Below, piece by piece: positions 49,703-63,533 of a DNA stretch of 64,000 nt (position 1 is its first letter; every line of letters begins with the position of its first letter). Origin of the DNA: Gammaproteobacteria bacterium (GTDB lineage Bacteria > Pseudomonadota > Gammaproteobacteria > Ga0077536); NCBI GenBank assembly GCA_016209015.1, contig JACQWY010000060.1:62001-126000 (forward strand), in the 5' to 3' direction. The notes under the pieces are model-generated. The model was given only the letters and a program-made list of their open reading frames with translations, did not search any database and was not told the DNA's origin. The position numbers were made by a program, and so were the translations under genes.

Positions 49703-50293
49703 ATGTTCACACTGTCCCCGCTGCCCTATGCCCACGACGCGCTCGAACCCGTCCTGTCGCGCGAGACGCTCGAATACCACTACGACAAGCACCACAAGGG
49801 CTATGTCACGAAATTGAACGAGCTCGCCGCCGGGAAAGGCGTGACGGCCACGACGCTGGAAGAGCTCGTGATGAACGCGAGCGGCGCGATCTACGACAAC
49901 GCCGCGCAGATCTGGAACCACGATTTCTACTGGGCGGGGCTGTGCGCGCCCGCCGACAAGCAGCCGACGGGCGCGCTCGCCGCGGCGCTGAGCGCGAAGT
50001 ATGGTTCGTTCGAAGGCTTCAAGGACACCTTCGAAGCCGCGTCGATGGCGCTGTTCGGCTCGGGCTGGTCCTGGCTCGTCGTCGACGCCGGGGGTCGCCT
50101 CGAGATGTTCTGCGGCAGCAACGCCGACAACCCGCTGAAGCACGGCTCGACGCCGCTCCTCGGCTGCGACGTGTGGGAGCACGCGTACTACATCGACTAC
50201 CGCAATCTCCGCACGGATTACCTGAAGGCGTTCTGGACGATCGTCGACTGGGATCGCGTCGCGGAGCGTTACGGGAAGGTCGTGAAGAAGTAG
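49703..50293 (+). CDS. sodB: Superoxide dismutase, iron type
   Basis: 196-residue Fe/Mn superoxide dismutase converting superoxide to oxygen and peroxide. Metal ligands are His26 (LEYHYDKHHKGYV), His73 (AAQIWNHDFYW), Asp156 and His160 (CDVWEHAYY). Gln69 in AAQIWNH and SNADNPL mark the iron-type subgroup. CGAAGAGGCTATTCCG precedes the ATG. No signal peptide; cytosolic. It is separated from the metallopeptidase gene by repeats. Confidence 0.96.
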   Translation: MFTLSPLPYAHDALEPVLSRETLEYHYDKHHKGYVTKLNELAAGKGVTATTLEELVMNASGAIYDNAAQIWNHDFYWAGLCAPADKQPTGALAAALSAKYGSFEGFKDTFEAASMALFGSGWSWLVVDAGGRLEMFCGSNADNPLKHGSTPLLGCDVWEHAYYIDYRNLRTDYLKAFWTIVDWDRVAERYGKVVKK

Positions 50294-50335
50294 GCGGGGC
50301 GGGTCGGATGCGCGTGGGCGACGCGCGCGCCGCGC

Positions 50336-50392
50336 GAACGTCGGATTGCGCCTGCGGAACGTCCGATTACGCCTGCGGCTAATCGGACCTGC
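50336..50392. repeat. GTAGGTCCG-type repeat, partial copy 2
   Basis: Half element: AACGTCCGATTACGCCTGCG and CTAATCGGACCT, the right half of the family seen at 11744, 51599 and 61298. Its left half is degenerate (GAACGTCGGATTGCGCCTGC). Confidence 0.7.
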
Positions 50393-50439
50393 GCGTGGGT
50401 TGGTATTGGAGAGACCCCTCCGCTCCGGCGCTCCGGAAG

Positions 50440-50557
50440 CCGGGGTATGACGCGCATGGATAATTCGCGCGGCGAGACTCTACTGAAATGAATCGCGGCA
50501 TGGCGCGAGTTACCCACACGCGTCAGACCCCGGCACCACACGCCTCAGACCCCGGCC
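50440..50557. repeat. GGGGTC-core palindromic repeat after sodB
   Basis: CCGGGGTATGACGCGCATGG (50440) with ATAATTCGCGC faces GCGCGAGTTACCCACACGCG (50503) and CAGACCCCGG. A further CTCAGACCCCGG follows. The inner TTACCCACA is a DnaA-box-like nonamer. The right end reaches into the metallopeptidase gene and supplies its TGA stop. Confidence 0.75.
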
Positions 50558-51567
50558 CGCACCACTTCGTGGACGAACTGCAACTTCGCGATCGCCGGGG
50601 CGGGCAGGACGAAGGGATACATGTCCGGCTGGCCCATCGAGCGGTTCAAGGCGTTGACCGCGACCGTGACCGGCATCCACGCGGCGACGATGCGCGCGAA
50701 ATCGCGGTCGCGGGTTTCCGGCAATTCGTCCGCATCCGCGACGCTGAGGCCGTAGGCCCGCGCCGTCTCGAGCGTGTCGCGAATGTGGAGATAATGCGCC
50801 CACGTCTCGGCCCAGTCCTCGTGCGGATGGGCGCTCGCGTAGGCCGAGACGTGGTGCGCGGTCCACTCCGCGGGCGCGCCTGCGGCGTAATGGCGCGCGA
50901 GCGCCGCGGCGTAGTCCGCGCTCTCGTCGCCGAAGTGCGCGCGGAACGGCGCGTGCCAGCGCGTGCCGTCGACGAGCGTCGCGAAATAGTAGTGGCCGGC
51001 TTCGTGGCGCAGGTGGCCGAGCAGGGTGCGATACGTCTCGCCGAACTGCTCGCGTATCCGGTTGCGCGCGGCCTCGTCCGCCTCGGCGAGCGCGAGCGTG
51101 ATGAGCCCCTCGTCGTGACCCGTCCTCACGTGACTGCCGGGCGTCTCGGCGAGAATGTCGAACGCGAGCGGCGGATCGGCGCGGGGATCGTCCTGTGCGA
51201 AGGGCAGACCGAGCGCGAGCAGCGTGTAGATCAGGCGGCGCTTCGCGGCCTCCGTGCGTGCCCACAGCGCGATGTTCCCGGGCACGCCGAGATCGGGGAT
51301 CGTGCGATCGAGCCGGCAGCTCGCGCAGTAGCGCGCCTCCTCGTCCGCCGGCACGAGCCAGTTGCACACGCCGCGCGCATCGTAGTTCGCGCACAGTCGC
51401 CAGGCGCCGGCCTCCGGCGCGCGGGCGAGCGTGTACGTCGTGCCGTCGCCGTCGAGCGCTTCCATCGCGAGGCGCGCCGGCGCGAAACCGACCGTGCGCT
51501 CGCATTGCACGCACTGCACGTTCTCGAAGAAGAGCTCCTGGCCGCAGTGGCAGTGGAAGCGTTGCAT
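50545..51567 (-). CDS. Putative zinc-binding metallopeptidase (peptidase Mx-like)
   Basis: 340-residue protein with an N-terminal treble-clef-like Cys part (FHCHCGQELFFENVQCVQCE and CASCRL near residue 80) and a C-terminal metalloprotease-type core: HExxH in LRHEAGHYYF and a third region HPHEDWAETWAHYLHI. This is the family of putative zinc-binding metallopeptidases with an N-terminal zinc ribbon. It is cytosolic by prediction and of unknown substrate. Its last codons (AGV-stop) and its TGA come from the adjacent GGGGTCTGA repeat. Confidence 0.88.
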   Translation of the reverse strand: MQRFHCHCGQELFFENVQCVQCERTVGFAPARLAMEALDGDGTTYTLARAPEAGAWRLCANYDARGVCNWLVPADEEARYCASCRLDRTIPDLGVPGNIALWARTEAAKRRLIYTLLALGLPFAQDDPRADPPLAFDILAETPGSHVRTGHDEGLITLALAEADEAARNRIREQFGETYRTLLGHLRHEAGHYYFATLVDGTRWHAPFRAHFGDESADYAAALARHYAAGAPAEWTAHHVSAYASAHPHEDWAETWAHYLHIRDTLETARAYGLSVADADELPETRDRDFARIVAAWMPVTVAVNALNRSMGQPDMYPFVLPAPAIAKLQFVHEVVRAGV

Positions 51568-51598
51568 GGTTCGTTGTCTCGCGTTCGCTTCAGTTTTC

Positions 51599-51726
51599 GT
51601 AGGTCCGTATTAGCCGCAGGCGTAATCGGACGTTCGTCGGCCCGTGTTGTCCATGCGCCGTCGGTCGCGGACGCGGTGTCGCGACGGGATGGAACGTCCG
51701 ATTACGCTGGCGCTGATCGGACCTAC
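51599..51726. repeat. GTAGGTCCG-type palindromic repeat, copy 3
   Basis: Complete copy: GTAGGTCCGTATTAGCCGCA at 51599, CGTAATCGGACGTTCG, then AACGTCCGATTACGCTGGCG and GATCGGACCTAC at the right end. It lies upstream of the metallopeptidase. Confidence 0.88.
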
Positions 51727-51816
51727 GGGATTTATGCGGTGTATAGGATGTGCCGACGAAGGAGGCGCAGCGGTCGCGGGATGGTTCGTACTTTGAAGAT
51801 CCCTTCGATAGGGGTT

Positions 51817-51909
51817 GGGGTCACACCCGCGCGGATAACTCGCGGGCGGGTGCGTTGCAGACTCGATGCTTCGGCGCGGGCGCGAGTTGTCCACACGGGT
51901 GCGACCCCT
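51817..51909. repeat. GGGGTC-core palindromic repeat with TTGTCCACA
   Basis: GGGGTCACACCCGCGCGGAT with AACTCGCG (51817) is matched by CGCGAGTTGTCCACACGGGT and GCGACCCC (to 51909). Same module order as the repeats at 22036 and 34631. Confidence 0.85.
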
Positions 51910-51918
51910 CTGGAAAAC

Positions 51919-52010
51919 GCGGTCTGATGCGCAGAGATGCCGCGCGCCCATGCCGAGGTCGCAAATCTGCACGGCGTACGCGCGCGCGGCGTCTCTGCGC
52001 ATCAGACCGC
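51919..52010. terminator. Long hairpin at the 3' end of the PLD gene
   Basis: GCGGTCTGATGCGCAGAGAT (51919) and ATCTCTGCGCATCAGACCGC (near-complement, 51990-52009; one mismatch region) form a stem of about 28 pairs around a centre. It starts one base after the PLD-gene stop on the minus strand, so it is well placed as a terminator or mRNA stabiliser. It may also be a distinct repeat family. Confidence 0.55.
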
Positions 52011-53399
52011 TCACAGCCACCTCCAAAACAACGTCGCCGCGCCTTCCTGCATGCGCTGCGGCAGCGAGCGGTTCGTCCAGCGTTCGAGCGTGATCTCGGT
52101 CGCCGCGTCGATATCGCGCAAAAAGGTCTCGGCGAGATCCGCGGTGAAATCGCTGTCGACGATGACCGCGGTCACCTCGTTGTTGTCGAGGAGGCTGCGG
52201 AAATCCATGTTCGCCGAGCCGACGAGCGCGACGCTGCCGTCGAGGACCGCGGTCTTGGCGTGGACGAAGGCGGCGTCGAATTCGTAGATGCGCACGCCCG
52301 CGCGCAGGAGCTCGCCGTACATCGAGCGCGAAGCGCTCAGCACGGCGCGCGAGTCGCTGAAGCCCGGCAGCAGGATGCGCACGTCCACGCCGCGCCGCGC
52401 GGCCGCGACGAGCGCTTCGCGCAGCGAGCTGTCGGGCGCGAAATAGGCCTGCGTGATCCACAAGCGCCGGCGCACGCCGTTCACCGCGGCGAGCAAGGCG
52501 CTCTGGATCGCCGCTTCCGTCGGGCCGCCCGGCTCGCTCGCGATCGCGCCGACGAGTGCGGCGCCCTGCGGCTTCGGCGGCACGAAGCCGGCGCCCGCAC
52601 CCGGCGTGGCGCTGCCGCCCGTGCGCGCCCAACTGTGGAAGAAGAGCGCCTGGAACTCCGTGACCGCCGGGCCCGTGATCCGCACCTGGGTATCGCGCCA
52701 GCCGTCCTCGAGGCTCTTCTGCCGTTCGTCGTCGGCGTGCATGCCCGAGCCCATGTTGTACGTGCCGCTGATGTTGATGCCGCCGACGAACGCGATGCGG
52801 CCGTCGACGACGAGCAGCTTGCGGTGATCGCGATGATTGATGCTGCCGTCGAGCACCTTGTCGAGCGAGTCGAGCGGCTGGAACACGCGCACCTCGACGC
52901 CCGCCGCGCGCAGCTCGTCGAACAGCGCGTCCTTCGCCGCCCACGAGCCGATGCCGTCGTAGAGCACGCGCACGGAGACCCCTTCGCGCGCTTTCTCGGC
53001 GAGCAGCGCGGCGAAGGAGCGGCCGAGCTTGTCGTCCGAGAAGATGAACGTCTCGACGTGGATGCTGCTGCGCGCGTCCGCGATCGCGTGGGCGAACTCG
53101 CCGAACGTCGTCGGCCCGTCGGTGAGGAGCTTCACGGTATTGCCCGCGACGAGCGCCGCGTGCGTCATGGTCTGGCGCAGGCTCGTGACGAGCGCGATGT
53201 CGGATTGCGCCGATGCCGTGCCGCGCAGGGCACGCGCCAGCAGCCGCCGTTCCTCCGTGCGATTCGCCGGGCCGTGCGCGCCGACGACGGGCAGCGCGGT
53301 TGCGGCACGCGGCGGGCCCTGGATGCGCGTGTCGGGTCCCGCGCAGGCCGTGAGCAATACCGCCAGTGCGAGCCCCGCCCACGCGGTGAATTTGCTCAT
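52011..53399 (-). CDS. Phospholipase D/cardiolipin synthase-like lipoprotein
   Basis: 462-residue PLD-superfamily phosphatidyltransferase or phospholipase. N-terminus: lipoprotein signal (LALAVLLTACAGPDTR, lipobox LTAC). Two HKD motifs: HRDHRKLLVVDGRIAFVGG and FVHAKTAVLDGSVALVGSAN, followed by NxD-type residues; both active-site halves are intact. This predicts cardiolipin synthase-like or phospholipase activity anchored to the envelope. It is divergent from the BON gene. The hairpin at 51919 ends it. Confidence 0.92.
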   Translation of the reverse strand: MSKFTAWAGLALAVLLTACAGPDTRIQGPPRAATALPVVGAHGPANRTEERRLLARALRGTASAQSDIALVTSLRQTMTHAALVAGNTVKLLTDGPTTFGEFAHAIADARSSIHVETFIFSDDKLGRSFAALLAEKAREGVSVRVLYDGIGSWAAKDALFDELRAAGVEVRVFQPLDSLDKVLDGSINHRDHRKLLVVDGRIAFVGGINISGTYNMGSGMHADDERQKSLEDGWRDTQVRITGPAVTEFQALFFHSWARTGGSATPGAGAGFVPPKPQGAALVGAIASEPGGPTEAAIQSALLAAVNGVRRRLWITQAYFAPDSSLREALVAAARRGVDVRILLPGFSDSRAVLSASRSMYGELLRAGVRIYEFDAAFVHAKTAVLDGSVALVGSANMDFRSLLDNNEVTAVIVDSDFTADLAETFLRDIDAATEITLERWTNRSLPQRMQEGAATLFWRWL

Positions 53400-53547
53400 G
53401 GGCTTTGTATCCCTTACCACGGGTCCGCCGCTGCAGGCCCGCCGTGCGGCGCGGCAGCGGCGCATCCCGTTGATTACTGCGGGAGGAGCATCAAATGGCA
53501 TGCCATCTGCAGCGTTGACTGCACGTTGATCAAGACAGGACATTGCC

Positions 53548-53874
53548 ATGAACCATTCATTGCTCAAGTCACTCGCAATCGCCGGCGCGCTCGCGTTCGG
53601 CAGTGTGCCGCTGCACGTGTTCGCCGTGGACGATTCCGACACGCACAGTGCGGGCGAGGTGCTCGACGACACGCTCATCACCACGAAAGTGAAGGCGGGC
53701 CTCGTCGGCGATCCGATCACGAAGGCTCATCAGATCTCGGTGGATACCTACAAGGGCACCGTGAAGCTCTCGGGCTACGTCGATACCGCGGAAGCGAAGC
53801 ATCGCGCCGTGCAGATCGCGCGCGCCACGAAGGGCGCGCTCGTCGTGGAGGACGATCTCACCGTCCGTCCGTAA
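53548..53874 (+). CDS. BON-domain periplasmic protein
   Basis: 108-residue exported protein with signal peptide (LKSLAIAGALAFGSVPLHVFA) and one BON domain (VLDDTLITTKVKAGLVGD, HQISVDTYKGTVKLSGYVDT). BON domains bind phospholipids or peptidoglycan, as in OsmY, and are often osmotic-stress induced. It is divergent from the PLD gene; the 148-base gap between them contains both promoters. Its end overlaps the end of the convergent PDE-EEP gene by 17 bases. Confidence 0.92.
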   Translation: MNHSLLKSLAIAGALAFGSVPLHVFAVDDSDTHSAGEVLDDTLITTKVKAGLVGDPITKAHQISVDTYKGTVKLSGYVDTAEAKHRAVQIARATKGALVVEDDLTVRP

Positions 53875-56293
53875 GCGCTGCGAGGCGCCCGTCGTGCGCG
53901 GCTTCGCCCGCCGCGGCGGGCGCGACCGGCAGCGCGAGCTCGACGACGAGCGGCAGGTGATCCGAGGCCCGCCGGCAGAGCTGCGTGCGCGGCACGTCTA
54001 CGCCAAGCACGTCGAGCTCATGCGAGGCGAAGACGTGATCGATCCGGCGCGTCGGCTGGCCCGCGAACCAGGTGCTGCGCGGCGTCCAGTCCGCGCGGGC
54101 GCGCTGCACGTCGCGGAGCAGCATGCTGAGCCGCCGCCACACGTAGGAACGTTCCCCCGCATTGAAATCACCGCACACGATCGCCGGGCCGAGCGCGAGC
54201 GCCGTGAGCAGCCATTCCGCGCCCGCGAGCACCTCGATCTGCGCTCGCCGCTCGGCGGCGGAGAGGCCGAGATGCGTGTTGACGACCTGCAGCTCGCGGC
54301 CGCCGCCCGCATCGATCGCCACCCACAGCGCACCGCGCGGCTCGCGCCCCGGCAGGCCCGGCAGGCGCTCCGCCTTCACGAGACGGATCGGCAGCGTGGA
54401 CAGCACGGCATTGCCGTACTGCTCCTCACGGAGCTCGTAGGCCGGATGGAAGACGTGCGACATCGCGAGCTGGGCCGCGATCTCGTGCGCCTGATCGACG
54501 CCCTGCGAGCGTGCACGTCCGACGTCGAGCTCCTGCAGCGCGACCACGTCCGGCCGGCATTGCGCGAGCACGCGCGCAATGCGATGCGGCAGCGTGCGCC
54601 CGTCGAGACCGCGGCAGCCGTGGACGTTGTAGGTCACGGCGCGCAGCGTGCGCCGGGCGCGGGCTTCCGCCGGGAGCGCGGGCGAGGTGTCGTCGCGACC
54701 GAGCTGGGCGAGCGCGGCGCGCCTGAGATCGCGGGCCCGCACGTAGGCCGCGGGGCGCGGCGGCAGCTTCGCGTCCGCGTCGAGGAGCGCGATGCCGTGC
54801 GTCTCGTGCGGCCCGTAGCCGCCGTGCGCGCCGTTCTCCATCGCGAACGTGTGCGGCGCGTCGCCCGCGCACCAGCCCGACAGCACGAGATCGCCGGCGC
54901 AGGGATGACGCACGAGGCTCATCACGTCCTCGATCGCCTCGATCAGGAACGGATGCGACTCGCCGAGCAGCTTCGCGCCGTCCTCGGGCAGCACGAGCAC
55001 GCCGGCGCGCGTCCAGGCGTGGATGCGATCGTGGTCGAGCGTGCAGAGCACCGCGGGCACGCCGGCTTCGGCGACGAGCTTCGCGGCGAGCGCGGCCTTG
55101 CCGTCGGGCGTCGGCGCTTCCGGGAGGTAGACGAAGCCCATCGGCCCCAACGCGGCGACGCGCACGCGCTCCGGACGCGCCGCGGCGCAGTCCGCGGGAT
55201 CGCGCGTGTCGTAGGGCAGGCGGCGGCGCAGCGTCCGCGCGCGATAGCTCGGCGCGGCCTCGGCCGGCGCGTGGCGCGGCAGCGTCTCGAGCGTGCCCGC
55301 GACGAGCGCCGCGACGACTTCCTCGATGTCGCGGCCATGGCGGAGCGCATACGGGGTCGCGCGCTCCTGGCCGTGATCGGAATAGATCCACACGCGATAG
55401 TCGCGATGCTCGGACGCCATCGCCTGGCGCCACAGCCGCGCGATCGTCCGATCGATGCCCTTCAGCGCCCAGTGCGCGAAGCGGGCGCGCGGCCCGCGCC
55501 GATGCGCCTGCTCGTCGTAGCCGACGAGGTTGAGATGGATGATCGGCAGCCCGCGGGCGATGTCGATGGCGGCACCGATGGCGATCAGCTCGCGCAGGCC
55601 GATCGACACCGCGACGCGCGTCGGCACGAATTTCAGCTCGTGCAGGAGATGGAAGCGCGGCCCGAGGCCGCGCACGAAGTCGCTGATCGCGATCGCGAAT
55701 TCGAGCGCGACGAGGCCGGCGACGCGGAGCACGCTGCCGAGGTTCGTGAGCACGAGCATCGCGAGCGCGAGCGGCTTCGCGCTCCTGAGCACCGGCCCCC
55801 AGCCGAGCGCGGCGACGCAGAAGTGGGCTTCGTCCTCCGTCGCGCCGCCCGTGAAGATGTTGCCGTAGGACGCGCCGCCCGCGAGCAGCGGCACGTGCGT
55901 CGTCCCGAGCCGCTCTTCGAGCTCGCGCACGGGCCCCGGATCGAGCATGCGCACGATTTCGCCGCTGTCGGGATGACGGAAGCTGAAGGCGGGCACGGTC
56001 GCCTTCTGGCCGTAGAAGAGCTCGGTCTGCACCGCGGGCGTCGTGCAGGGCACGCCGGCGTAGAGATCGTGCAGCACGTAGTGCTCGCGTCGCAGCAGAC
56101 GGCGCAGGAACGGCAGGCGGCCGGCGGCGAGCGCGGCGTCGAACTGATCCCGGCCGAGGCCGTCGATCTGGACGATGACGAGGCCCGGTGCGGCCGGGGC
56201 CGTCGCGCCCGGCGCGAGCTTCAGCAGGCGCCGCGCGACATCGCCGCGGCCGAGCTTCCGCCGCCAGCGCCGGAGCGTGCCGAGGAGGCTCAT
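53858..56293 (-). CDS. Fusion of a type I phosphodiesterase-like domain and an EEP-domain protein
   Basis: 811-residue fusion. Residues about 30-540: alkaline-phosphatase-superfamily/type I phosphodiesterase, with metal Asp in VIVQIDGLGRDQFDAAL, a candidate nucleophile Thr in VPCTTPAVQTELFYG, and IHLNLVGYDEQAHRRG plus IYSDHGQER for further ligands. Residues about 560-810: endonuclease/exonuclease/phosphatase domain, with AVTYNVHGCRG, VVALQELDVGRA, VVNTHLGLS, IVCGDFNAGERS and ASDHLPLVVEL. ATG 56293 overlaps the upstream glycosyltransferase stop (ATGA). It is the last gene of a four-gene operon. Probable role: hydrolysis of phosphodiester bonds in lipid or glycan head groups; unproven. Confidence 0.88.
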   Translation of the reverse strand: MSLLGTLRRWRRKLGRGDVARRLLKLAPGATAPAAPGLVIVQIDGLGRDQFDAALAAGRLPFLRRLLRREHYVLHDLYAGVPCTTPAVQTELFYGQKATVPAFSFRHPDSGEIVRMLDPGPVRELEERLGTTHVPLLAGGASYGNIFTGGATEDEAHFCVAALGWGPVLRSAKPLALAMLVLTNLGSVLRVAGLVALEFAIAISDFVRGLGPRFHLLHELKFVPTRVAVSIGLRELIAIGAAIDIARGLPIIHLNLVGYDEQAHRRGPRARFAHWALKGIDRTIARLWRQAMASEHRDYRVWIYSDHGQERATPYALRHGRDIEEVVAALVAGTLETLPRHAPAEAAPSYRARTLRRRLPYDTRDPADCAAARPERVRVAALGPMGFVYLPEAPTPDGKAALAAKLVAEAGVPAVLCTLDHDRIHAWTRAGVLVLPEDGAKLLGESHPFLIEAIEDVMSLVRHPCAGDLVLSGWCAGDAPHTFAMENGAHGGYGPHETHGIALLDADAKLPPRPAAYVRARDLRRAALAQLGRDDTSPALPAEARARRTLRAVTYNVHGCRGLDGRTLPHRIARVLAQCRPDVVALQELDVGRARSQGVDQAHEIAAQLAMSHVFHPAYELREEQYGNAVLSTLPIRLVKAERLPGLPGREPRGALWVAIDAGGGRELQVVNTHLGLSAAERRAQIEVLAGAEWLLTALALGPAIVCGDFNAGERSYVWRRLSMLLRDVQRARADWTPRSTWFAGQPTRRIDHVFASHELDVLGVDVPRTQLCRRASDHLPLVVELALPVAPAAAGEAAHDGRLAALTDGR

Positions 56294-57591
56294 CCGCCCG
56301 CGCCGGCCGCCGGCACCGGCGGCAGCTCGTCGCTCGCCAGCGCCTGGCCCGCCGCGCCCGCGATGCCCTTCAGCACTGTCCACTCCGCGCTGATGCGGTT
56401 GATCGCATCGTCCCACAGCGCATAGGCGGACTTCTCCGGCGCTTCGAACTCGCGCGTCACCGCCGCGTAGATCCCGAGCGCGCGCGCCGCGCAGCGCGGC
56501 AGGGCGTAACGCACGGCCGTCGCGCGGGCCTGGCGCCGCAGCTTCAGCCGATCCGGGGGATCGAGCTTTGCGCACCAGGCGAGCGCCTGCACGAAGGCCT
56601 CCTCGTTCTCGTGCGCGAGGAGGCGTCCGTTGCGGCGATCCGCGACCACTTCGCGTGCGCCCGGCGCGTCGAGCGCGACGACCGGCACGGAGGCGGCCAT
56701 GGCCTCGGTCAGCACCATGCCCTGGGTCTCGGTCTTCGAGGCGAACGCGAAGACGTCCATCGCGCGATACGCGCTCACGAGCAGCGGATGATCGAAGCTG
56801 CCGAGGAGGTGCGCGCGGCCGGCGACGCGGTGCGCCTGGAAGCGCTTGCGCATGTCGGCGACACAAGGCCCGCTGCCGACGACGAGCGCGACGGCGCGCG
56901 GCTCGCGGGCGAGGAAGCCGGCGATGCAGCGCGTGAGGAACCCGAGGTTCTTCTCCGGCGCGAGGCGGCCGACGTGGCCGACGACGAACGCCTCGCGCGG
57001 GATGCCGAGCGCGGCGCGGAAGCCGCGGCCGTGGCCCTGCGTGAAGTGCTCCGTGCGCACGCCCGTCGGCAGGATTTCGATCGGCACCGTCACGCCGCGC
57101 GCGACGAGCGTCGCCGCGACGCTCTCGCTCGGCGCGAACACGCGATGGCAGTTGTTCGCGTAGTGCGTCGAGAGCGTCGCGACGAAGCGCTTCAGGAGCG
57201 GCGAATCGACCGGCACGTAATGCGTGTACTCCTCGTACATCGTGTGATGCGTGAACACGAGCGGGATCGCGTACTGCCGGGCGAGCCTGAGCGCTGCCGA
57301 GCCGACGAGGAAGGGATGGTGGGAATGGAGGATTTCGGGCTGGAACCGCTCGACGGCCTCGGTGAGCCGGCCGCTGTCCGGCAGCATCATCGAGAAATCG
57401 CTGCCGTTGAAGTTCTGCACGGCCGAGACGCGCACGACGCCCTGCTCGTCGGGATCGACGCCCGCGAACTCGGGCGCGACGACGAGCACGTCGTGACCCT
57501 GCGCGCGATACGCGTCCGTGAACGCCGCGACCGAGCGCGCGACGCCGCCGACGTGCGGCAGGTAGGTGTTCGTCATCATCATGATGCGCAT
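56290..57591 (-). CDS. GT4-type glycosyltransferase
   Basis: 433-residue GT-B retaining glycosyltransferase. N-terminal part: MMMTNTYLPHVGGVARSVAA and FTHHTMYEEYTHYVP; C-terminal nucleotide-sugar domain: VGHVGRLAPEKNLGFLTRCI and the E-x7-E motif ETQGMVLTE. The pattern is that of the mannosyl- or diacylglycerol glucosyltransferases of the GT4 family. Its ATG 57591 overlaps the preceding glycosidase end by 13 bases and its stop overlaps the next start, so translation is coupled. Confidence 0.92.
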   Translation of the reverse strand: MRIMMMTNTYLPHVGGVARSVAAFTDAYRAQGHDVLVVAPEFAGVDPDEQGVVRVSAVQNFNGSDFSMMLPDSGRLTEAVERFQPEILHSHHPFLVGSAALRLARQYAIPLVFTHHTMYEEYTHYVPVDSPLLKRFVATLSTHYANNCHRVFAPSESVAATLVARGVTVPIEILPTGVRTEHFTQGHGRGFRAALGIPREAFVVGHVGRLAPEKNLGFLTRCIAGFLAREPRAVALVVGSGPCVADMRKRFQAHRVAGRAHLLGSFDHPLLVSAYRAMDVFAFASKTETQGMVLTEAMAASVPVVALDAPGAREVVADRRNGRLLAHENEEAFVQALAWCAKLDPPDRLKLRRQARATAVRYALPRCAARALGIYAAVTREFEAPEKSAYALWDDAINRISAEWTVLKGIAGAAGQALASDELPPVPAAGAGG

Positions 57592-59816
57592 GCGGCGCGC
57601 CTCCGGAGCGTGATGCCCGCGCAGTCCGCGGCGGCGACGACCTGCTCGCAGCCGGGCAGCGCGCAGTGGATCGCGGGCGGCGTGCCGCGCCAGTCCGCTT
57701 CCCAGGTGACGTGCGGCGCGTCCGCGGGGCCGCTGATCCCGACCGTGATCGCGCCGAAGCGCGTGAGCGTCGGACCGAAGCCGAGCGGCCGTCCGCCGAG
57801 CCAGACCGCGGGCAGGCCCGAGCCCAGCACGAGCCGGTCGTCCTCCTCGCGCACGAAGCAGTTGCGCACGTACAGCACCCATTCCGCCGCGGCCCAGCCG
57901 TGCTGGCCGTCGCCCATGCAGCCGCCGCCGTTGCGCGGGTGCACGGCCTCGGGCCACTGGCCCGTCGGCGAGGCGAGGTTCATGACCGTGGCCGCGAGCT
58001 CGGCGTGGCGCGCATCGCCGGCGCGCAGCCACACCTGCGCGAGGTGCAGGGTGAGATAGGGATTGATGCCGGAGTGGATGATGTCCTGGAAGAACCCGCC
58101 GCCGACGAGACAGTGCTGATGCAGGAACTCCGCGGTGTCGAGCAGCCGCGGATCGCGCGGGCCGAACGAGGCGAGCGGATAGCCCGCGGCGAGCGAGCCG
58201 ACGGCGCCGCCGTCGAGCCGGCGATAGGGCGAGGCCGGCATCGCGGGCCGGCCGAGACGCGCGGCCGACGTCGCGAGGCTGCGATCGAGCGCGGCGGCGA
58301 ACGCGTTCGCGTCGCGCGTGCAGCGTGCCGCGCCCGCCGGGTCGCCGGTCTCGAGCAGCGTCGCGGCTGCGCGCAGGCCCGCGACGCCCCAGAAATCGTC
58401 CCAGTAGTAATAGTCGTTCGGGCCGAGATGCTCGGCACTGAAACCCGCGGGCAACAGGCCCGCATGCGGCGCATCGCCGTCCGGCGCACGCTTGCGCGCG
58501 ATCCACTGCGCGCCGCGACGCACGGCGCCGAGCGTGTCGCGATCCGGCGTGCGCCCCGTGAGCGCCGCGTAGCGCGCGAGGATCCAGATCGCCTCGCCGT
58601 TCGAATCCCACTCGCCGTCCTGCGAGCAGAAATAGCCCTGCAGCGTCTGGCGCGCGGGAAAGCGGGCGAGGGCGCGCGCGGCGCGCGCAGTCAGACCGAG
58701 CGCGAGCAGTGCATCGATGAGGAACGCCGCGTCGCGATACCAGAACCGGCGATACGTGTACGGCCCCGGATAGACCTCCTCCGGCGAGAGCAGGACGAGC
58801 GTGCGTTGCGCCGCCTCGAACAGGAACGCGAAGCGCGGATCCGGCACGTCGAGCGCGCACGCGCCCTCGAGTGCGCGCGGCCAGTCGAGCGGCGGCGCCG
58901 CCGGGGTGCCGACCGGCGTGCGCAGCGGGCCCTCGACGCGGATGCTGCGGGCATGCGCGCCGTCGAGGCGGAAGCCCGCGGCGGCCGTCGCCATGCCCTG
59001 CGCGCAGCTCACCGCGGCGTGCTCGCCGCGGCGTTCGTCCCAGGTCGTGTAGATGTCGCCCTCGGCATAACGCGAGACGAGATGCAGATCCGGCCGCACG
59101 TTGAGCTCGAGCCCGTCCTGACCGTTCACGATCCAGCGCCGGCCCTCGAGTCGCACGTCCGTGATGAACGAGACGCCCTCGGGATTGAACGGCCGGAGCG
59201 CGACGACGAGCCAGGCCGCGGCCGGGCCCTCGGCTTCGCAGCTCACGCGAAAGCGCGGCGCGCCGTCGACGACGATGCCTTCCGCGCGGACTTCGAGCGC
59301 GAGCTCGCGGCCCAGGCGCGTACGCGTGACGACGGCGGGAGCGGGCGCGAGCTCGAGCGTCTGCACGACGTCGTCGGCGTAGGCGGGAATGAGCCATTGA
59401 CCGTGCGCGTCGCGCAGCCACACGTCGATCGACCAGCCGTCCCAGTAGGGCGTGACGAGGCCGGCCGGGTCGACGATCGCGAAGGCGTCGACGTCCGGCA
59501 CGCCGCAGGCCGTCCAGTTGCGATGCGTGAGGTTGATGTGGGTGAGCGCGAAGGCGCGCGGCACGAACGAGACGTCGTGGGGGTCGTATTGCCGGCGCAC
59601 CCAGTACGGCCAGCGCCAGTCGAGATTGTGCTGGATGACGCGGGCGTTGATGAGGCCGCGGGCGTGCATCATCACGCCCGCGCGCAAGAGCTCGATCGGA
59701 TACTCGACCTCGGAGGGCTGGCCGAACTGGCGGAGCTTCTTCAGCAGCCCCGTCGGATCCATGAAGCCCTGCGCGATCGCGGCGCGGCGCAGCAGCGATT
59801 GCCACGGCCATCTCAC
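57579..59816 (-). CDS. Six-hairpin glycosidase-like protein (glycogen-debranching/glucoamylase-like)
   Basis: 745-residue putative glycosidase with an N-terminal beta region (about 1-300) and a C-terminal (alpha/alpha)6-type part (about 320-680): YTYRRFWYRDAAFLIDALLA, DGEWDSNGEAIWILARYAAL and PNDYYYWDDFWGVAGLRAAA are barrel motifs like those of GH15/GH63 and amylo-glucosidases. No signal peptide. GTG start 59816 overlaps the VTT stop (GTGA). The substrate is unknown; context suggests trimming of a lipid- or nucleotide-linked glycan. Confidence 0.82.
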   Translation of the reverse strand: MRWPWQSLLRRAAIAQGFMDPTGLLKKLRQFGQPSEVEYPIELLRAGVMMHARGLINARVIQHNLDWRWPYWVRRQYDPHDVSFVPRAFALTHINLTHRNWTACGVPDVDAFAIVDPAGLVTPYWDGWSIDVWLRDAHGQWLIPAYADDVVQTLELAPAPAVVTRTRLGRELALEVRAEGIVVDGAPRFRVSCEAEGPAAAWLVVALRPFNPEGVSFITDVRLEGRRWIVNGQDGLELNVRPDLHLVSRYAEGDIYTTWDERRGEHAAVSCAQGMATAAAGFRLDGAHARSIRVEGPLRTPVGTPAAPPLDWPRALEGACALDVPDPRFAFLFEAAQRTLVLLSPEEVYPGPYTYRRFWYRDAAFLIDALLALGLTARAARALARFPARQTLQGYFCSQDGEWDSNGEAIWILARYAALTGRTPDRDTLGAVRRGAQWIARKRAPDGDAPHAGLLPAGFSAEHLGPNDYYYWDDFWGVAGLRAAATLLETGDPAGAARCTRDANAFAAALDRSLATSAARLGRPAMPASPYRRLDGGAVGSLAAGYPLASFGPRDPRLLDTAEFLHQHCLVGGGFFQDIIHSGINPYLTLHLAQVWLRAGDARHAELAATVMNLASPTGQWPEAVHPRNGGGCMGDGQHGWAAAEWVLYVRNCFVREEDDRLVLGSGLPAVWLGGRPLGFGPTLTRFGAITVGISGPADAPHVTWEADWRGTPPAIHCALPGCEQVVAAADCAGITLRRRAACAS

Positions 59817-60523
59817 GGCGGCGGCTCCGCGGTCTCGAGCAGCACGCGCCGCGCGCGCCGCGCGACGAGCAGCGCCGCGCCGAACGCGAGCAGCAGCAGC
59901 GCGCCGTCGAGCGCCCAGGCGAGCGGCGGGCGATGCTGATGGCCGAGGCGCAGCGCGTCCGCGAGATCCTGCGCCATGGCGCCGATCGCGACGTTCACGA
60001 CCGTCAGCGGTACGACCCCGAGCACCGTCCCGATGACGTAATCGCGGAGCGGCACGCCGAGCGCCCCGAGCGCATAGTTCGAGGTCTTGAACGGAAAGAG
60101 CGGAATCATCCGCAGCAGCGCGATGGCACGCCAGCCGCCCGCTGCGACGCTCCGCGCGAGCGCCTGCGGCGCGCGCGTCGCGGCGAGCCAGCGTTCGACG
60201 CGCCCGCGCAGCGCGTGCCGGCCGATGAGATAGGCCGCGGTCGCACCGAGCGCCGTGGAAGCCGTGATGATCGCCGTGCCCTTCACGACGCCGAACAGAA
60301 AGCCCGCGCCGATGGTGATGAGAAAGGCCGGCAGCAGCAGCACGACGGCGAGCGCGTCGATCGCGCCGAGCAGCACGATGCCGAGATCGCCGTGCGCATC
60401 CACCCAGTCGAGGAACACCGCGATGGCGTCGCGCAGCGCGGGCGAACGGGCGAGCGCGGCGAGCAGCGCCGCGAGCAGCGCGGCGCCGAGCGCCGCGAAC
60501 AGCAGACCGGTGCGTCGTGTCAT
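59813..60523 (-). CDS. TVP38/TMEM64 (VTT-domain) membrane protein
   Basis: 236-residue DedA-superfamily inner-membrane protein with about six hydrophobic segments. The diagnostic VTT features are FLITIGAGFLFGVVKGTAII, TAAYLIGRHALRGRVERWL and RMIPLFPFKTSNYALGALGV, a re-entrant helix motif with F/P. Family members act as lipid scramblases or undecaprenyl-phosphate carriers. It is the first gene of the operon, overlaps the glycosidase start by GTGA, and lies 56 bases downstream of a 43-residue peptide gene. Confidence 0.92.
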   Translation of the reverse strand: MTRRTGLLFAALGAALLAALLAALARSPALRDAIAVFLDWVDAHGDLGIVLLGAIDALAVVLLLPAFLITIGAGFLFGVVKGTAIITASTALGATAAYLIGRHALRGRVERWLAATRAPQALARSVAAGGWRAIALLRMIPLFPFKTSNYALGALGVPLRDYVIGTVLGVVPLTVVNVAIGAMAQDLADALRLGHQHRPPLAWALDGALLLLAFGAALLVARRARRVLLETAEPPP

Positions 60524-60579
60524 GGGAGCTCACGGCCGCGACGCGCGGCCGGGCGCGATCGGACAGTGGCGCGCGACGC

Positions 60580-60711
60580 TCAGGTGCAGCCGCGCAGCAT
60601 GAACAGCAGGACGAGTACGGGGACCGGCACGCCCAGCAGCCACAGCAACACCCAGCCCATGCGGCCGGATTGCGAACTCGGGAGCGTCGGAAAGCGGCGG
60701 GGTGTGTTCAT
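60580..60711 (-). CDS. Small single-helix membrane protein (43 residues)
   Basis: MNTPRRFPTLPSSQSGRMGW starts the protein, followed by a single hydrophobic helix (VLLWLLGVPVPVLVLLFML) and RGCT end. The layout (Arg/Pro-rich head, PxP in the helix, C-terminal Cys) is that of a conserved family of tiny membrane proteins. CCAGGACCG precedes the ATG. It lies 148 bases after the metallothionein gene and just before the VTT gene. Confidence 0.75.
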   Translation of the reverse strand: MNTPRRFPTLPSSQSGRMGWVLLWLLGVPVPVLVLLFMLRGCT

Positions 60712-60859
60712 GGCGTCGGTCCTGGAGAGTGTCTGCGAGAGGCCGAATCAAGATCCACGCCAAACCATGCGATCGCCTGCGGGCGCCGCGCGGCCCGCCG
60801 CGCGACGCCCGGGATGCGAACCGCTTGCACGGCCGCGTGCAGGATTTGCAACGCGACAC

Positions 60860-61051
60860 TCATGCGTCCGCGCCCGCGATCGCCGTGCTCCTGCCGCATT
60901 CGCAGCCGGCATGCGCACAGCCCTTGCCCTGCACGCACGCCTCGCTGCAGTAGTAGTCCTCGCCGACGCGGATCGCCCGCGCGAGATTGACCACACAGCG
61001 ACACTCCACGTGCGCACAACGCGCCGCGGTGATCTCCGCGTCCGGGTTCAC
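60860..61051 (-). CDS. Bacterial metallothionein
   Basis: 63-residue Cys-rich protein: CAHVECRCVVNLARAI, DYYCSEACVQGKGCAHAGCE and CG give nine Cys plus His, the pattern of the SmtA/PsMT metallothioneins that bind zinc or cadmium. GTG start; it begins ten bases after the DUF1328 stop. The metal-binding role fits the neighbouring Dps and FeSOD genes in this stress region. Confidence 0.93.
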   Translation of the reverse strand: MNPDAEITAARCAHVECRCVVNLARAIRVGEDYYCSEACVQGKGCAHAGCECGRSTAIAGADA

Positions 61052-61060
61052 CCGCGCCGC

Positions 61061-61228
61061 TCAGAGTGGAGGTCTGCGCCGCGCGAGCACGAAGAACACG
61101 AGCGCGAGCACGAGCCCGACGACGAACAGGACCCACGCGATTTGCATGGACATGCCCGCGACGCCGTTCAGCCCGAGGACCGCGGCGACGATGGCGATGA
61201 TGAGGAAAGTTGCAGCCCAACCGAACAT
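61061..61228 (-). CDS. DUF1328 small membrane protein
   Basis: 55-residue protein: [40 protein letters not shown] and a second helix ending ARRRPPL. The GLNGVAG turn is diagnostic of the DUF1328 (YtjA-like) family, small stress-inducible membrane proteins. It is the first gene of a run DUF1328-metallothionein-43 aa peptide, all minus strand. AACGAGGTGCCAC precedes the ATG. Confidence 0.88.
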
Positions 61229-61297
61229 GTGGCACCTCGTTTGTCGAGTGACGACGAAGCGGGCGTTGCATGCGATGTGCCAGACGCCGGAGGCCTC

Positions 61298-61415
61298 GTA
61301 GGTCCGTTGATTAGCCGCAGGCGTAATCGGACGTTCGCAGGCGTAATCGGACGCTCGGCCGCCGCGGACGTCCGCGATGAACGTCCGATTACGCTGCGCT
61401 AAGCAACGGACCTAC
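61298..61415. repeat. GTAGGTCCG-type palindromic repeat, copy 4
   Basis: GTAGGTCCGTTGATTAGCCG at 61298, two CGTAATCGGACG boxes, then AACGTCCGATTACGCTGCGC and AACGGACCTAC at 61415. The right end holds the stop codon of the Dps gene. It fills most of the gap between DUF1328 and Dps. Confidence 0.9.
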
Positions 61416-61948
61416 CGCGCCAGCATCGCGCGCAGCATCCACACGTTCTGTTCGTGCTGGCCGATGCGATCGGTGAGGAGATCGGCGGTCTTCACGTCGT
61501 CGGCCTCGGCGGCGGCGCGCACGGCGGCACGCAGGCTGCGGCAGCATATCTCGTTGCCGTCCGCGAGCTGCTCGACCATCGCCTCCGCGGTCGGCACGCC
61601 GGATTCGCTGCGGATTTCGGACAGACGCGTGAACTGTTCGAAGCTCGCGGGCGCGGGATGGCCGATCGCGCGAATGCGTTCGGCGATTTCGTCGACGGCT
61701 TCGGCGAGCTCTTCGTACTGCGCCTCGGTGAGCTTGTGCAACGAATAGAACAGCGGGCCCGCGACGTTCCAGTGGAAGCCCTGGGTCTTGAGGTACAGCA
61801 CGTAGGTGTCGGCGAGCGCGACGCCGAGGCGCTGCGCGAGCTCGCGCAGATCCTGGCCGCGCAAACCGAGGTTCGGCGAGAGCTCGGCGGCTTTGACGTC
61901 GAGCACGGTCTGGGCTTCGCTGCCGGCTGCGGATGGTTGATTCGCCAT
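61412..61948 (-). CDS. dps: Dps-family ferritin-like DNA-protection protein
   Basis: 178-residue Dps. Ferroxidase ligands follow the Dps pattern: His59 (KTQGFHWNVAGP), His71 (SLHKLTEAQ), Glu75 in place of the usual Asp, Asp86 and Glu90 (VDEIAERI). This oxidises Fe(II) with peroxide, stores iron and protects DNA. ATG 61948 follows GGAGGACCATCGC. Its TAG stop comes from the GTAGGTCC repeat. It is upstream of the metallothionein/DUF1328 group on the same strand. Confidence 0.93.
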   Translation of the reverse strand: MANQPSAAGSEAQTVLDVKAAELSPNLGLRGQDLRELAQRLGVALADTYVLYLKTQGFHWNVAGPLFYSLHKLTEAQYEELAEAVDEIAERIRAIGHPAPASFEQFTRLSEIRSESGVPTAEAMVEQLADGNEICCRSLRAAVRAAAEADDVKTADLLTDRIGQHEQNVWMLRAMLAR

Positions 61949-62090
61949 GCGATGGTCCTCCTGGCTGCGGGCCGGATTGCCCGTGGAGCCGAGGTCGGTG
62001 CAAGGCCCGTGCCGCGCCTGCGGCGTCGCGGCACGTCGCGGGCGGACGGGATCAGGGCAGAATTTGCAATGCGGAGCGTGTAGAAGCTGC

Positions 62091-63461
62091 TCAGTTCGTG
62101 CCGGGCGGGAAGGGCACGTAGGCGTCGACGACCGTGCCGCGGCCGCTCTCGCCCGGCGTTACGGACAGGCGTCCGCCGAGTTGCGCCATGCGCTCGCGCA
62201 TGCCGAGCAGGCCGTGCGACATCGGCTTGTCGGCGGCGTCTGCCGGGATGCCGATGCCGTCGTCCGTCACGCGGAGCACCGCACCGCCGTTCTCGGCGCG
62301 GAGCTCGAGCTGCACGCGCTTCGCGTCTGCATATTTCGCGATGTTGTTCAGGGCCTCCTGGGCGACGCGGAACAGCGCGATCGACCACGCCGGATCGACC
62401 GCCGGAAATTTATCGGGGCAGTCCACGTCGCACGGCAGGTTCGTGCGCCGCGTGAAGTCCTCGCAGTGCATGCGGATCGCCGGGCAGAGACCGAGACTGT
62501 CCAGCATGCTCGGCCGGAGGCCCTGGATCAGCCGCCGCTTGATGTCGAGCGTCTCGTGCAGCAGTTCGAGGCTCCGGCGCAGCCGCTCGGCGAGCGCGGG
62601 CTCGCTCGTCTTCAGGCGCTGCATCACCGTCGTCACGTCGAGGTTGATCGCGGTGAGGTTAGAGCCCAGCTCGTCGTGCAGCTCGTTCGCGAGCGCGGCC
62701 TTCTCCGTCTCGGCGACCTGCAGCAGATGCCGCGAGAGCTGCGAGAGTTGCTGGGTGCGCGTCGCGACTTTCGCCTCGAGCGTGTCGTTCGCCGCGCGCA
62801 GCCCCGCTTCGGCGTCATGCCGGCGCTGCACGTTGCGCAGGATGTAGAGACCGAGCAGCAGGATCGCCGCGACGGCGAGCAGGTCGATCGCGATCGCGAC
62901 GCGGGCCGCGGCGACCGCGGCGGCGGAGCTCAGATCGGCGCGCGCAAGCAGCCGATCGTGATGGAAGCGCGCGAGCGCGGCGACCTCCTGCTCCGCGCCT
63001 TCGAGGACGCGCCGGCCGTCGGCGGCCTGCACGAGCTTCAGACCCTGCTCGGGGCGCCCGCCCGCGGCGAGCGTCACCGCCTCGGACAGCGCGTTCATGC
63101 CGGCCTCGACGCTCGTGCGCACGCGCGCGAGCGGTTCCGCGCCGCCGCCGGCCGCGAGACGGCCGAGCCGCGACGCGACGTCGCGGCGCGTGCGTTCGAA
63201 GGCGTCGAGCTGCGTGGCTTCACCCGTCAACAGATAGCCGCGCTGCGTGCTCTCGGCCGCGAGCAGCTCGATCTGCAGCGCGCGCAGATCGTCGAGCGTG
63301 CTGGAAGCCTGCTGCGATTCGAGCTTCGCGGCCGCGATGTCCCGGACGTTCCAGACCAGACTCGCGCCGCTGCCGAGGATCAACACGAGGCAGGCGACGA
63401 GTATGGCGGTGATGTGCGGCGGCATGAGCCGGACGGCCCGTAGCCCTGCGGCATTGTTCAT
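62091..63461 (-). CDS. CHASE3-containing histidine kinase of the NarX/DegS type
   Basis: 456-residue membrane histidine kinase. Two membrane helices (about 17-38 and 187-208) flank a periplasmic CHASE3-like domain (LLAAESTQRGYLLTGEATQL). The cytosolic part has a coiled coil (about 215-250), a HisKA_3 box with His262 in ANELHDELGSNLTAIN (the HDELG type of the NarX/DegS kinases) and a short HATPase domain (RVAQEALNNIAKYADAKRVQ, DDGIGIPADAADK). ATG 63461. No response regulator is adjacent within the window, so its partner lies elsewhere. Confidence 0.93.
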   Translation of the reverse strand: MNNAAGLRAVRLMPPHITAILVACLVLILGSGASLVWNVRDIAAAKLESQQASSTLDDLRALQIELLAAESTQRGYLLTGEATQLDAFERTRRDVASRLGRLAAGGGAEPLARVRTSVEAGMNALSEAVTLAAGGRPEQGLKLVQAADGRRVLEGAEQEVAALARFHHDRLLARADLSSAAAVAAARVAIAIDLLAVAAILLLGLYILRNVQRRHDAEAGLRAANDTLEAKVATRTQQLSQLSRHLLQVAETEKAALANELHDELGSNLTAINLDVTTVMQRLKTSEPALAERLRRSLELLHETLDIKRRLIQGLRPSMLDSLGLCPAIRMHCEDFTRRTNLPCDVDCPDKFPAVDPAWSIALFRVAQEALNNIAKYADAKRVQLELRAENGGAVLRVTDDGIGIPADAADKPMSHGLLGMRERMAQLGGRLSVTPGESGRGTVVDAYVPFPPGTN

Positions 63462-63533
63462 CGTGATCCCCGGCTGACCGGAACGAGGGGTGGCGAGTCT
63501 AGCATGTCCGGCCGCCACGGCGGCCCGCGCGTT

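Follow-up and report, generated by a model that had tools for sequence, protein, structure and literature searches.

What would hold a membrane protein, a glycosidase, a glycosyltransferase and a pair of phosphodiesterase domains together in one operon? The question is raised by a cluster in the genome of a Gammaproteobacteria bacterium (assembly GCA_016209015.1, contig JACQWY010000060.1, positions 62,001 to 126,000), a 64,000-nucleotide stretch that we call the window. The cluster encodes, in this order, a VTT/DedA-superfamily membrane protein (VTT), a six-hairpin-type glycosidase (GH), a GT4 glycosyltransferase (GT4), and a fusion of a phosphodiesterase (PDE) with an EEP domain (PDE-EEP). 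We find that the four genes are a real, deeply conserved unit. The reading we favor, to which we give an even chance, is that this unit is a conserved operon for the metabolism of inner-membrane glycolipids, acting at the cytoplasmic face.

Conservation of the gene neighborhood

A scan of genome collections returned at least 535 relatives of the GH, and neighborhoods were taken from the best 80 together with 11 further loci (n = 91). These loci represent the closest relatives, are taxonomically uneven, and include contigs that end inside the cluster. They span Pseudomonadota (gamma, beta, and alpha), Thermodesulfobacteriota, Myxococcota-labelled metagenome-assembled genomes (MAGs), Nitrospinota, Nitrospirota, and Omnitrophota. 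Among the hosts are the culturable genera Rheinheimera, Microbulbifer, and Marinobacter. After gene calling, GH recurred at 90 of the 91 loci, GT4 at 73, VTT at 60, and PDE/EEP at 48; the next commonest family beside GH reached 12. VTT lies directly upstream of GH at 60 loci, and the contiguous VTT-GH-GT4-PDE/EEP order, as called, was seen at 36. The co-directional VTT-GH-GT4-(PDE-EEP) order is found in Gamma-, Beta-, and Alphaproteobacteria, Desulfobacterota, and Nitrospinota, and partly in Omnitrophota. A preliminary description of the window had proposed that co-occurrence in distant genera would support a system, and the order is indeed common to several phyla. The GH tree interleaves branches of Thermodesulfobacteriota with branches of Pseudomonadota, which suggests horizontal transfer.

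Short overlaps between the genes recur along with the order. Of 60 VTT-GH pairs called at other loci, 48 overlap by 4, 1, or 13 bases, and of 70 GH-GT4 pairs, 54 overlap by exactly 4; because of this recurrence, the overlaps in the window are not a matter of chance. There, VTT and GH share GTGA at 59816-59813, GH and GT4 overlap by 13 bases (GT4 ATG at 57591, GH stop at 57579), and GT4 and PDE-EEP share ATGA at 56293-56290. The four minus-strand reading frames and their three overlaps thus lie exactly where the preliminary description had placed them. Its further suggestion, that the proteins are made in fixed ratio, goes beyond what overlaps can carry; translational coupling is a fair reading. 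Neither a sigma-70 promoter nor a terminator was found within 60400-61500 of the window.

Co-occurrence and co-variation of the four genes

We searched 274 genomes of the class, accepting GT4 orthologs at E ≤ 1e-100. Sixteen genomes hold a GT4 ortholog, 7 the PDE-EEP fusion, and 11 a full-length GH (strong matches counted), the last in nine families besides the window's own. GT4 directly follows GH in all ten of the other GH genomes, and a VTT precedes GH in six. Both GH and PDE-EEP are nested in GT4, which is present in 11/11 and 7/7 of their carriers (hypergeometric 3e-16 and 5e-10, respectively, relatedness ignored); two genomes, G157 and G268, combine GT4 and PDE-EEP with no GH. By co-occurrence GT4 is the hub gene, and GH and GT4 form the tightest pair. 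Within the window's own family, a full-length GH occurs in 2 of 36 sampled genomes, the full fusion occurs in the same two, and a full four-gene cluster is present at L181 (genome G313). The pairwise distances of the four proteins also correlate, with a Mantel r of 0.86-0.93 across 35 full loci.

Predicted folds and active sites

The GH matched no family in Pfam or NCBIfam; PF00723 (GH15) reached 10.4 bits against a cut-off of 22. Its AlphaFold2 model (pTM 0.82) shows a beta-sandwich followed by a six-hairpin (alpha/alpha)6 barrel. Foldseek matched the model to GH15, GH65, GH94, and related six-hairpin enzymes, with E values down to 1e-12, and comparison with PDB folds gave VIA-align Z scores of about 20-24, tied among several GH families including GH65 and GH94. 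The predicted fold therefore agrees with the six-hairpin glycosidase named in the preliminary description, and the likeness to GH15, GH65, and GH94 enzymes would lie in this two-domain architecture. The window GH differs from them in having no Pfam or NCBIfam assignment and only about 10-18% identity to solved structures; with its relatives at 535 or more loci, it is a distinct family. Invariant acids (90/90 homologs) include E402, D404, E462, and E623. A profile comparison gives a weak alignment of the E623 segment to the region of the GH15 base (P 0.007, probability low), and the loop carrying E462 has low confidence in the model. E623 is tentatively a candidate base, and any acid/base assignment is equally provisional. 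No match to the GH was found in viral contigs, and no signal peptide was evident in GH, GT4, or PDE-EEP on sequence inspection, no predictor being used.

L019 (1-4929, on C9 of the window genome) and L015 encode a distant paralog of the GH whose N-terminal part looks discoidin-like. At L019 it is followed by a GH94-type-phosphorylase-like gene, possibly a separate glycan system.

The VTT protein matches PF09335 well above the gathering cut-off (E = 1.4e-22; 80.9 bits against 33.9). Across 60 homologs, the first re-entrant motif has the consensus LPGvlfTtGAGFvFG, with no acidic residue, and the second re-entrant helix keeps a P-FP-K-SNY-G motif. DedA flippases of undecaprenyl phosphate (UndP; COG0586) are recognized by conserved acidic residues in that first helix (PMC10127716), and the COG0398 group has been proposed to scramble phospholipids. 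Because acidic residues are absent from their first motif, the module's VTT proteins are probably not UndP flippases and would by this criterion fit COG0398, sharing with TVP38 and YdjZ both the lack of first-helix acids and the second-helix motif. They differ from that group in being bound in an operon with glycan enzymes; we found no experimentally tested COG0398-type VTT protein in such a setting.

GT4 carries the GT-B domains PF13439 and PF00534, and the EX7E glutamates E288 and E296 are present in 73 of 75 homologs, with gaps in the other two. Its best NCBIfam model is alpha-monoglucosyldiacylglycerol synthase, which all 11 members match below the cut-off.

In the fusion, PF01663 (E = 3.7e-8) and PF03372 (E = 3.3e-25) are both recognized. 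The PDE domain, of the NPP/alkaline phosphatase superfamily, retains its metal ligands and threonine nucleophile, D260, H264, D306, H307, and H490 in 41/41 homologs and D44 and the threonine T85 in 40/41, with one gap; it also contains a hydrophobic segment at about residues 171-210. The EEP catalytic set (N556, E588, H674, D709, N711, D778, and H779) is complete in 41/41 homologs.

Lineage variants bearing on function

Omnitrophota loci have no VTT. In several of them the GH carries a GtrA_DPMS_TM domain fused to its N-terminus, in one GtrA is a separate gene, and in another a VTT-superfamily Sm_multidrug_ex protein occupies the VTT position. An acyl carrier protein and acyltransferase gene stands between GH and GT4 in this phylum, and the GT4 frames at L088, L092, and L095 extend to about 690-720 aa; the sole extended frame checked, L088_11, is a fusion of GT4 to an alpha/beta hydrolase.

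Other lineages split or rearrange the set. Marinobacter and Marinimicrobium keep VTT-GH only, with their best GT4 elsewhere in the genome, in a metallophosphoesterase-transmembrane (TM)-GT4 fusion that overlaps an LPG_synthase_TM (MprF-type membrane) gene (L120, 5704-8945, in Marinobacter). PF00149 scores 20.6 bits in this fusion, just below its cut-off of 21.5. The Marinobacter pair may be a glycolipid system of its own. Thiohalobacter has GH-GT4 and VTT-PDE-EEP at two separate loci, the PDE-EEP frame beside VTT (L124, 5293-7656) being broken. Sedimenticola and one Desulfuromonadales MAG encode PDE and EEP as separate genes flanking VTT-GH-GT4. Free-standing EEP relatives have PLD, LPG_synthase_TM, or VTT neighbors in 15/15 loci, mostly of another class, with the Pfam identities of these neighbors confirmed on a sample of loci. 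The VTT subfamily, the GtrA swap and fusion, the acyltransferase insertion, the EEP relatives beside phospholipid genes, the Marinobacter fusion next to an MprF-type gene, and the nearest models of GT4 give indirect support to a lipid setting, and we consider it likely that the module acts on lipids.

A proposed glycolipid cycle and its alternatives

Linkage, co-occurrence, co-variation, conserved catalytic residues, and gene swaps and fusions are the observations that any account of the module has to accommodate. In the scheme we favor, PDE-EEP would cleave a lipid phosphodiester, in the simplest case removing a phospholipid head group to leave diacylglycerol, and GT4 would glycosylate the released lipid with one sugar or several. 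The GH, acting in the cytosol, would trim or remove sugars and so set the length of the head group or permit reversal. VTT, or the GtrA or Sm_multidrug_ex protein in some lineages, would equilibrate the lipid across the bilayer. We infer the substrates, the product, the order of the reactions, and the flipping step. A bolder form of this proposal, which we hold only tentatively, is a horizontally mobile glycolipid cycle within one operon, in which a lipid would be dephosphorylated, glycosylated, scrambled, and re-trimmed as a reversible head-group switch, from Gammaproteobacteria to Desulfobacterota, with a GtrA/acyltransferase version in Omnitrophota. No description of the four-gene set was found in an open-licence library of papers, in keeping with the preliminary description, which knew of no system with exactly this set.

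The closest precedent is PlcP-Agt remodeling of phospholipids to glycolipids in Pseudomonas, Phaeobacter, and SAR11 (PMC8528852, PMC4796936), which likewise places a phosphodiesterase and a diacylglycerol-type glycosyltransferase in one operon. PlcP, however, is a PhoB-controlled phospholipase C from a different superfamily, whereas the module has an NPP-type and EEP fusion, no Pho box, and a glycosidase and VTT in addition. The calcineurin-like PF00149 domain typical of PlcP is absent from the window fusion, which contains PF01663 and PF03372 instead.

Several observations weigh against the glycolipid operon that we favor. Three genomes (G028, G174, and G272) hold GT4 without GH or PDE-EEP, a VTT gene adjoining GT4 in G272, and PDE-EEP or VTT is missing at some loci, which means that the four genes need not all occur together. 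GT4 scores 138 bits against 400, far under the cut-off of every named family, and the structure model of PDE-EEP is poor (pTM 0.38). The EEP and PDE families count nucleic acids, nucleotides, and sugar phosphates among their substrates as well. The analogy with PlcP-Agt remodeling leaves the role of the GH unexplained. Finally, Pho boxes upstream of 86 loci showed no excess over shuffles or control genes (mean 9.05 matches of 14, against 8.89 in the control genes), and because none rises above background, there is no support for regulation by phosphate starvation of the PlcP-Agt kind.

A polyprenyl-phosphate-linked pathway, in which GT4 would build on the carrier, VTT or GtrA would move or recycle it, the phosphodiesterases would cleave the phosphodiester, and the GH would trim, is in our estimate unlikely. 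GtrA proteins are bactoprenol-sugar flippases, and GT4 enzymes often build lipid-linked glycans. We retain this alternative chiefly on account of Omnitrophota, where GtrA takes the place of VTT and is even fused to the GH. Set against it are the lack in VTT of the acidic residues associated with flipping of UndP (PMC10127716), the absence of polymerase, ligase, or nucleotide-sugar genes conserved beside the module at the 91 loci, and the acyltransferase inserted in Omnitrophota. The preliminary description had envisaged synthesis, trimming, and flipping of either a glycolipid or a lipid-linked glycan; of this, a conserved unit is supported directly and a lipid setting indirectly, the glycolipid product, the trimming, and the flipping being putative, and the undecaprenyl-phosphate option becomes less likely by the VTT motif, although the GtrA swap speaks for it.

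Still less probable is a soluble glycoside or glucan system, with GT4 and a cytosolic GH making and degrading a compatible solute or short glucan, and VTT and PDE-EEP as loosely coupled envelope genes. The closeness of the GH-GT4 pair, the lack of a visible signal peptide in the GH sequence, and a predicted GH fold like that of the glucan- and disaccharide-acting GH15, GH65, and GH94 enzymes would suit such a system. It accounts poorly for the VTT, GtrA, or VTT-superfamily protein upstream of GH at most loci, the GtrA-GH fusion, a GT4 nearest to lipid glycosyltransferase models, and the GT4-PDE-EEP pairs that occur without GH.

A phosphate-sparing analogue of PlcP-Agt, induced by phosphate limitation, shares the logic of a phosphodiesterase with a GT4 and recalls the metallophosphoesterase-GT4 fusion of Marinobacter, but is improbable given the lack of upstream Pho box enrichment, phosphodiesterases from superfamilies other than that of PlcP, and the extra GH and VTT.

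Surroundings of the operon in the window

The features of the operon and one neighbor are collected in Table 1.

Table 1. Positions of the operon genes, the domains of the fusion, and a neighboring gene in the window
Feature	Positions	Strand	Basis and remarks
VTT/DedA-superfamily membrane protein, 236 aa	59813-60523	minus	PF09335; COG0398/TVP38-like motifs
GH, six-hairpin-type glycosidase, 745 aa, GTG start	57579-59816	minus	predicted fold
GT4 glycosyltransferase, 433 aa	56290-57591	minus	PF13439/PF00534, EX7E E288 and E296
PDE-EEP fusion, 811 aa	53858-56293	minus	PF01663 and PF03372
PDE domain of fusion, about residues 35-530	54700-56191	minus	alkaline-phosphatase superfamily; D44, T85, D260, H264, D306, H307, H490
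EEP domain of fusion, about residues 548-790, YbhP-like	53924-54652	minus	PF03372 at 553-779
PLD-type cardiolipin synthase homolog, neighbor outside the core	52011-53399	minus	TIGR04265; start inferred at MSKFTAWAG

The cardiolipin synthase homolog next to the fusion scores 305.9 bits with TIGR04265 (cut-off 290). As a fifth member of the operon it was ruled out, since it is not kept beside the module in relatives. Its N-terminus carries a lipobox-like LLTACAGP, suggesting a lipoprotein instead of the usual membrane-anchored form. In the enterobacterial ybhP-clsB-ybhN cluster, an EEP gene is linked to a PLD cardiolipin synthase and an LPG_synthase_TM protein (PMC9241728). The window resembles it in the succession of EEP and cardiolipin synthase homolog, the same genome holds a second such pair (L182, 13055-15264, on C26), in which the EEP and PLD cardiolipin synthase genes share an overlap of 4 bases, and the free-standing EEP relatives likewise lie beside PLD, LPG_synthase_TM, or VTT genes. 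The enterobacterial cluster differs in having no GT4 or GH, and the adjacency seen in the window is not conserved in relatives.

The flanks of the operon (49703-53874 and 61412-63518) encode superoxide dismutase-type, Zn-ribbon Peptidase_Mx, BON, Ferritin/Dps-like, and CHASE3 histidine kinase proteins, and BON-like and histidine-kinase-like genes lie near the operon of G313 (L181) too. A stress-island reading was rejected: the query families showed no significant enrichment around 63 loci compared with 32 random windows, even though they had been picked after some loci were viewed, a bias that favors enrichment. Because the stress genes are not enriched around these loci, such surroundings are specific to the window or to its family.

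Implications for bacterial glycolipid metabolism

If the glycolipid operon is real, it would provide a lipid context for two functionally blank groups, the COG0398-type bacterial VTT proteins and a glycosidase family outside Pfam. It would also constitute a second route to bacterial membrane glycolipids, one that uses unrelated phosphodiesterases.

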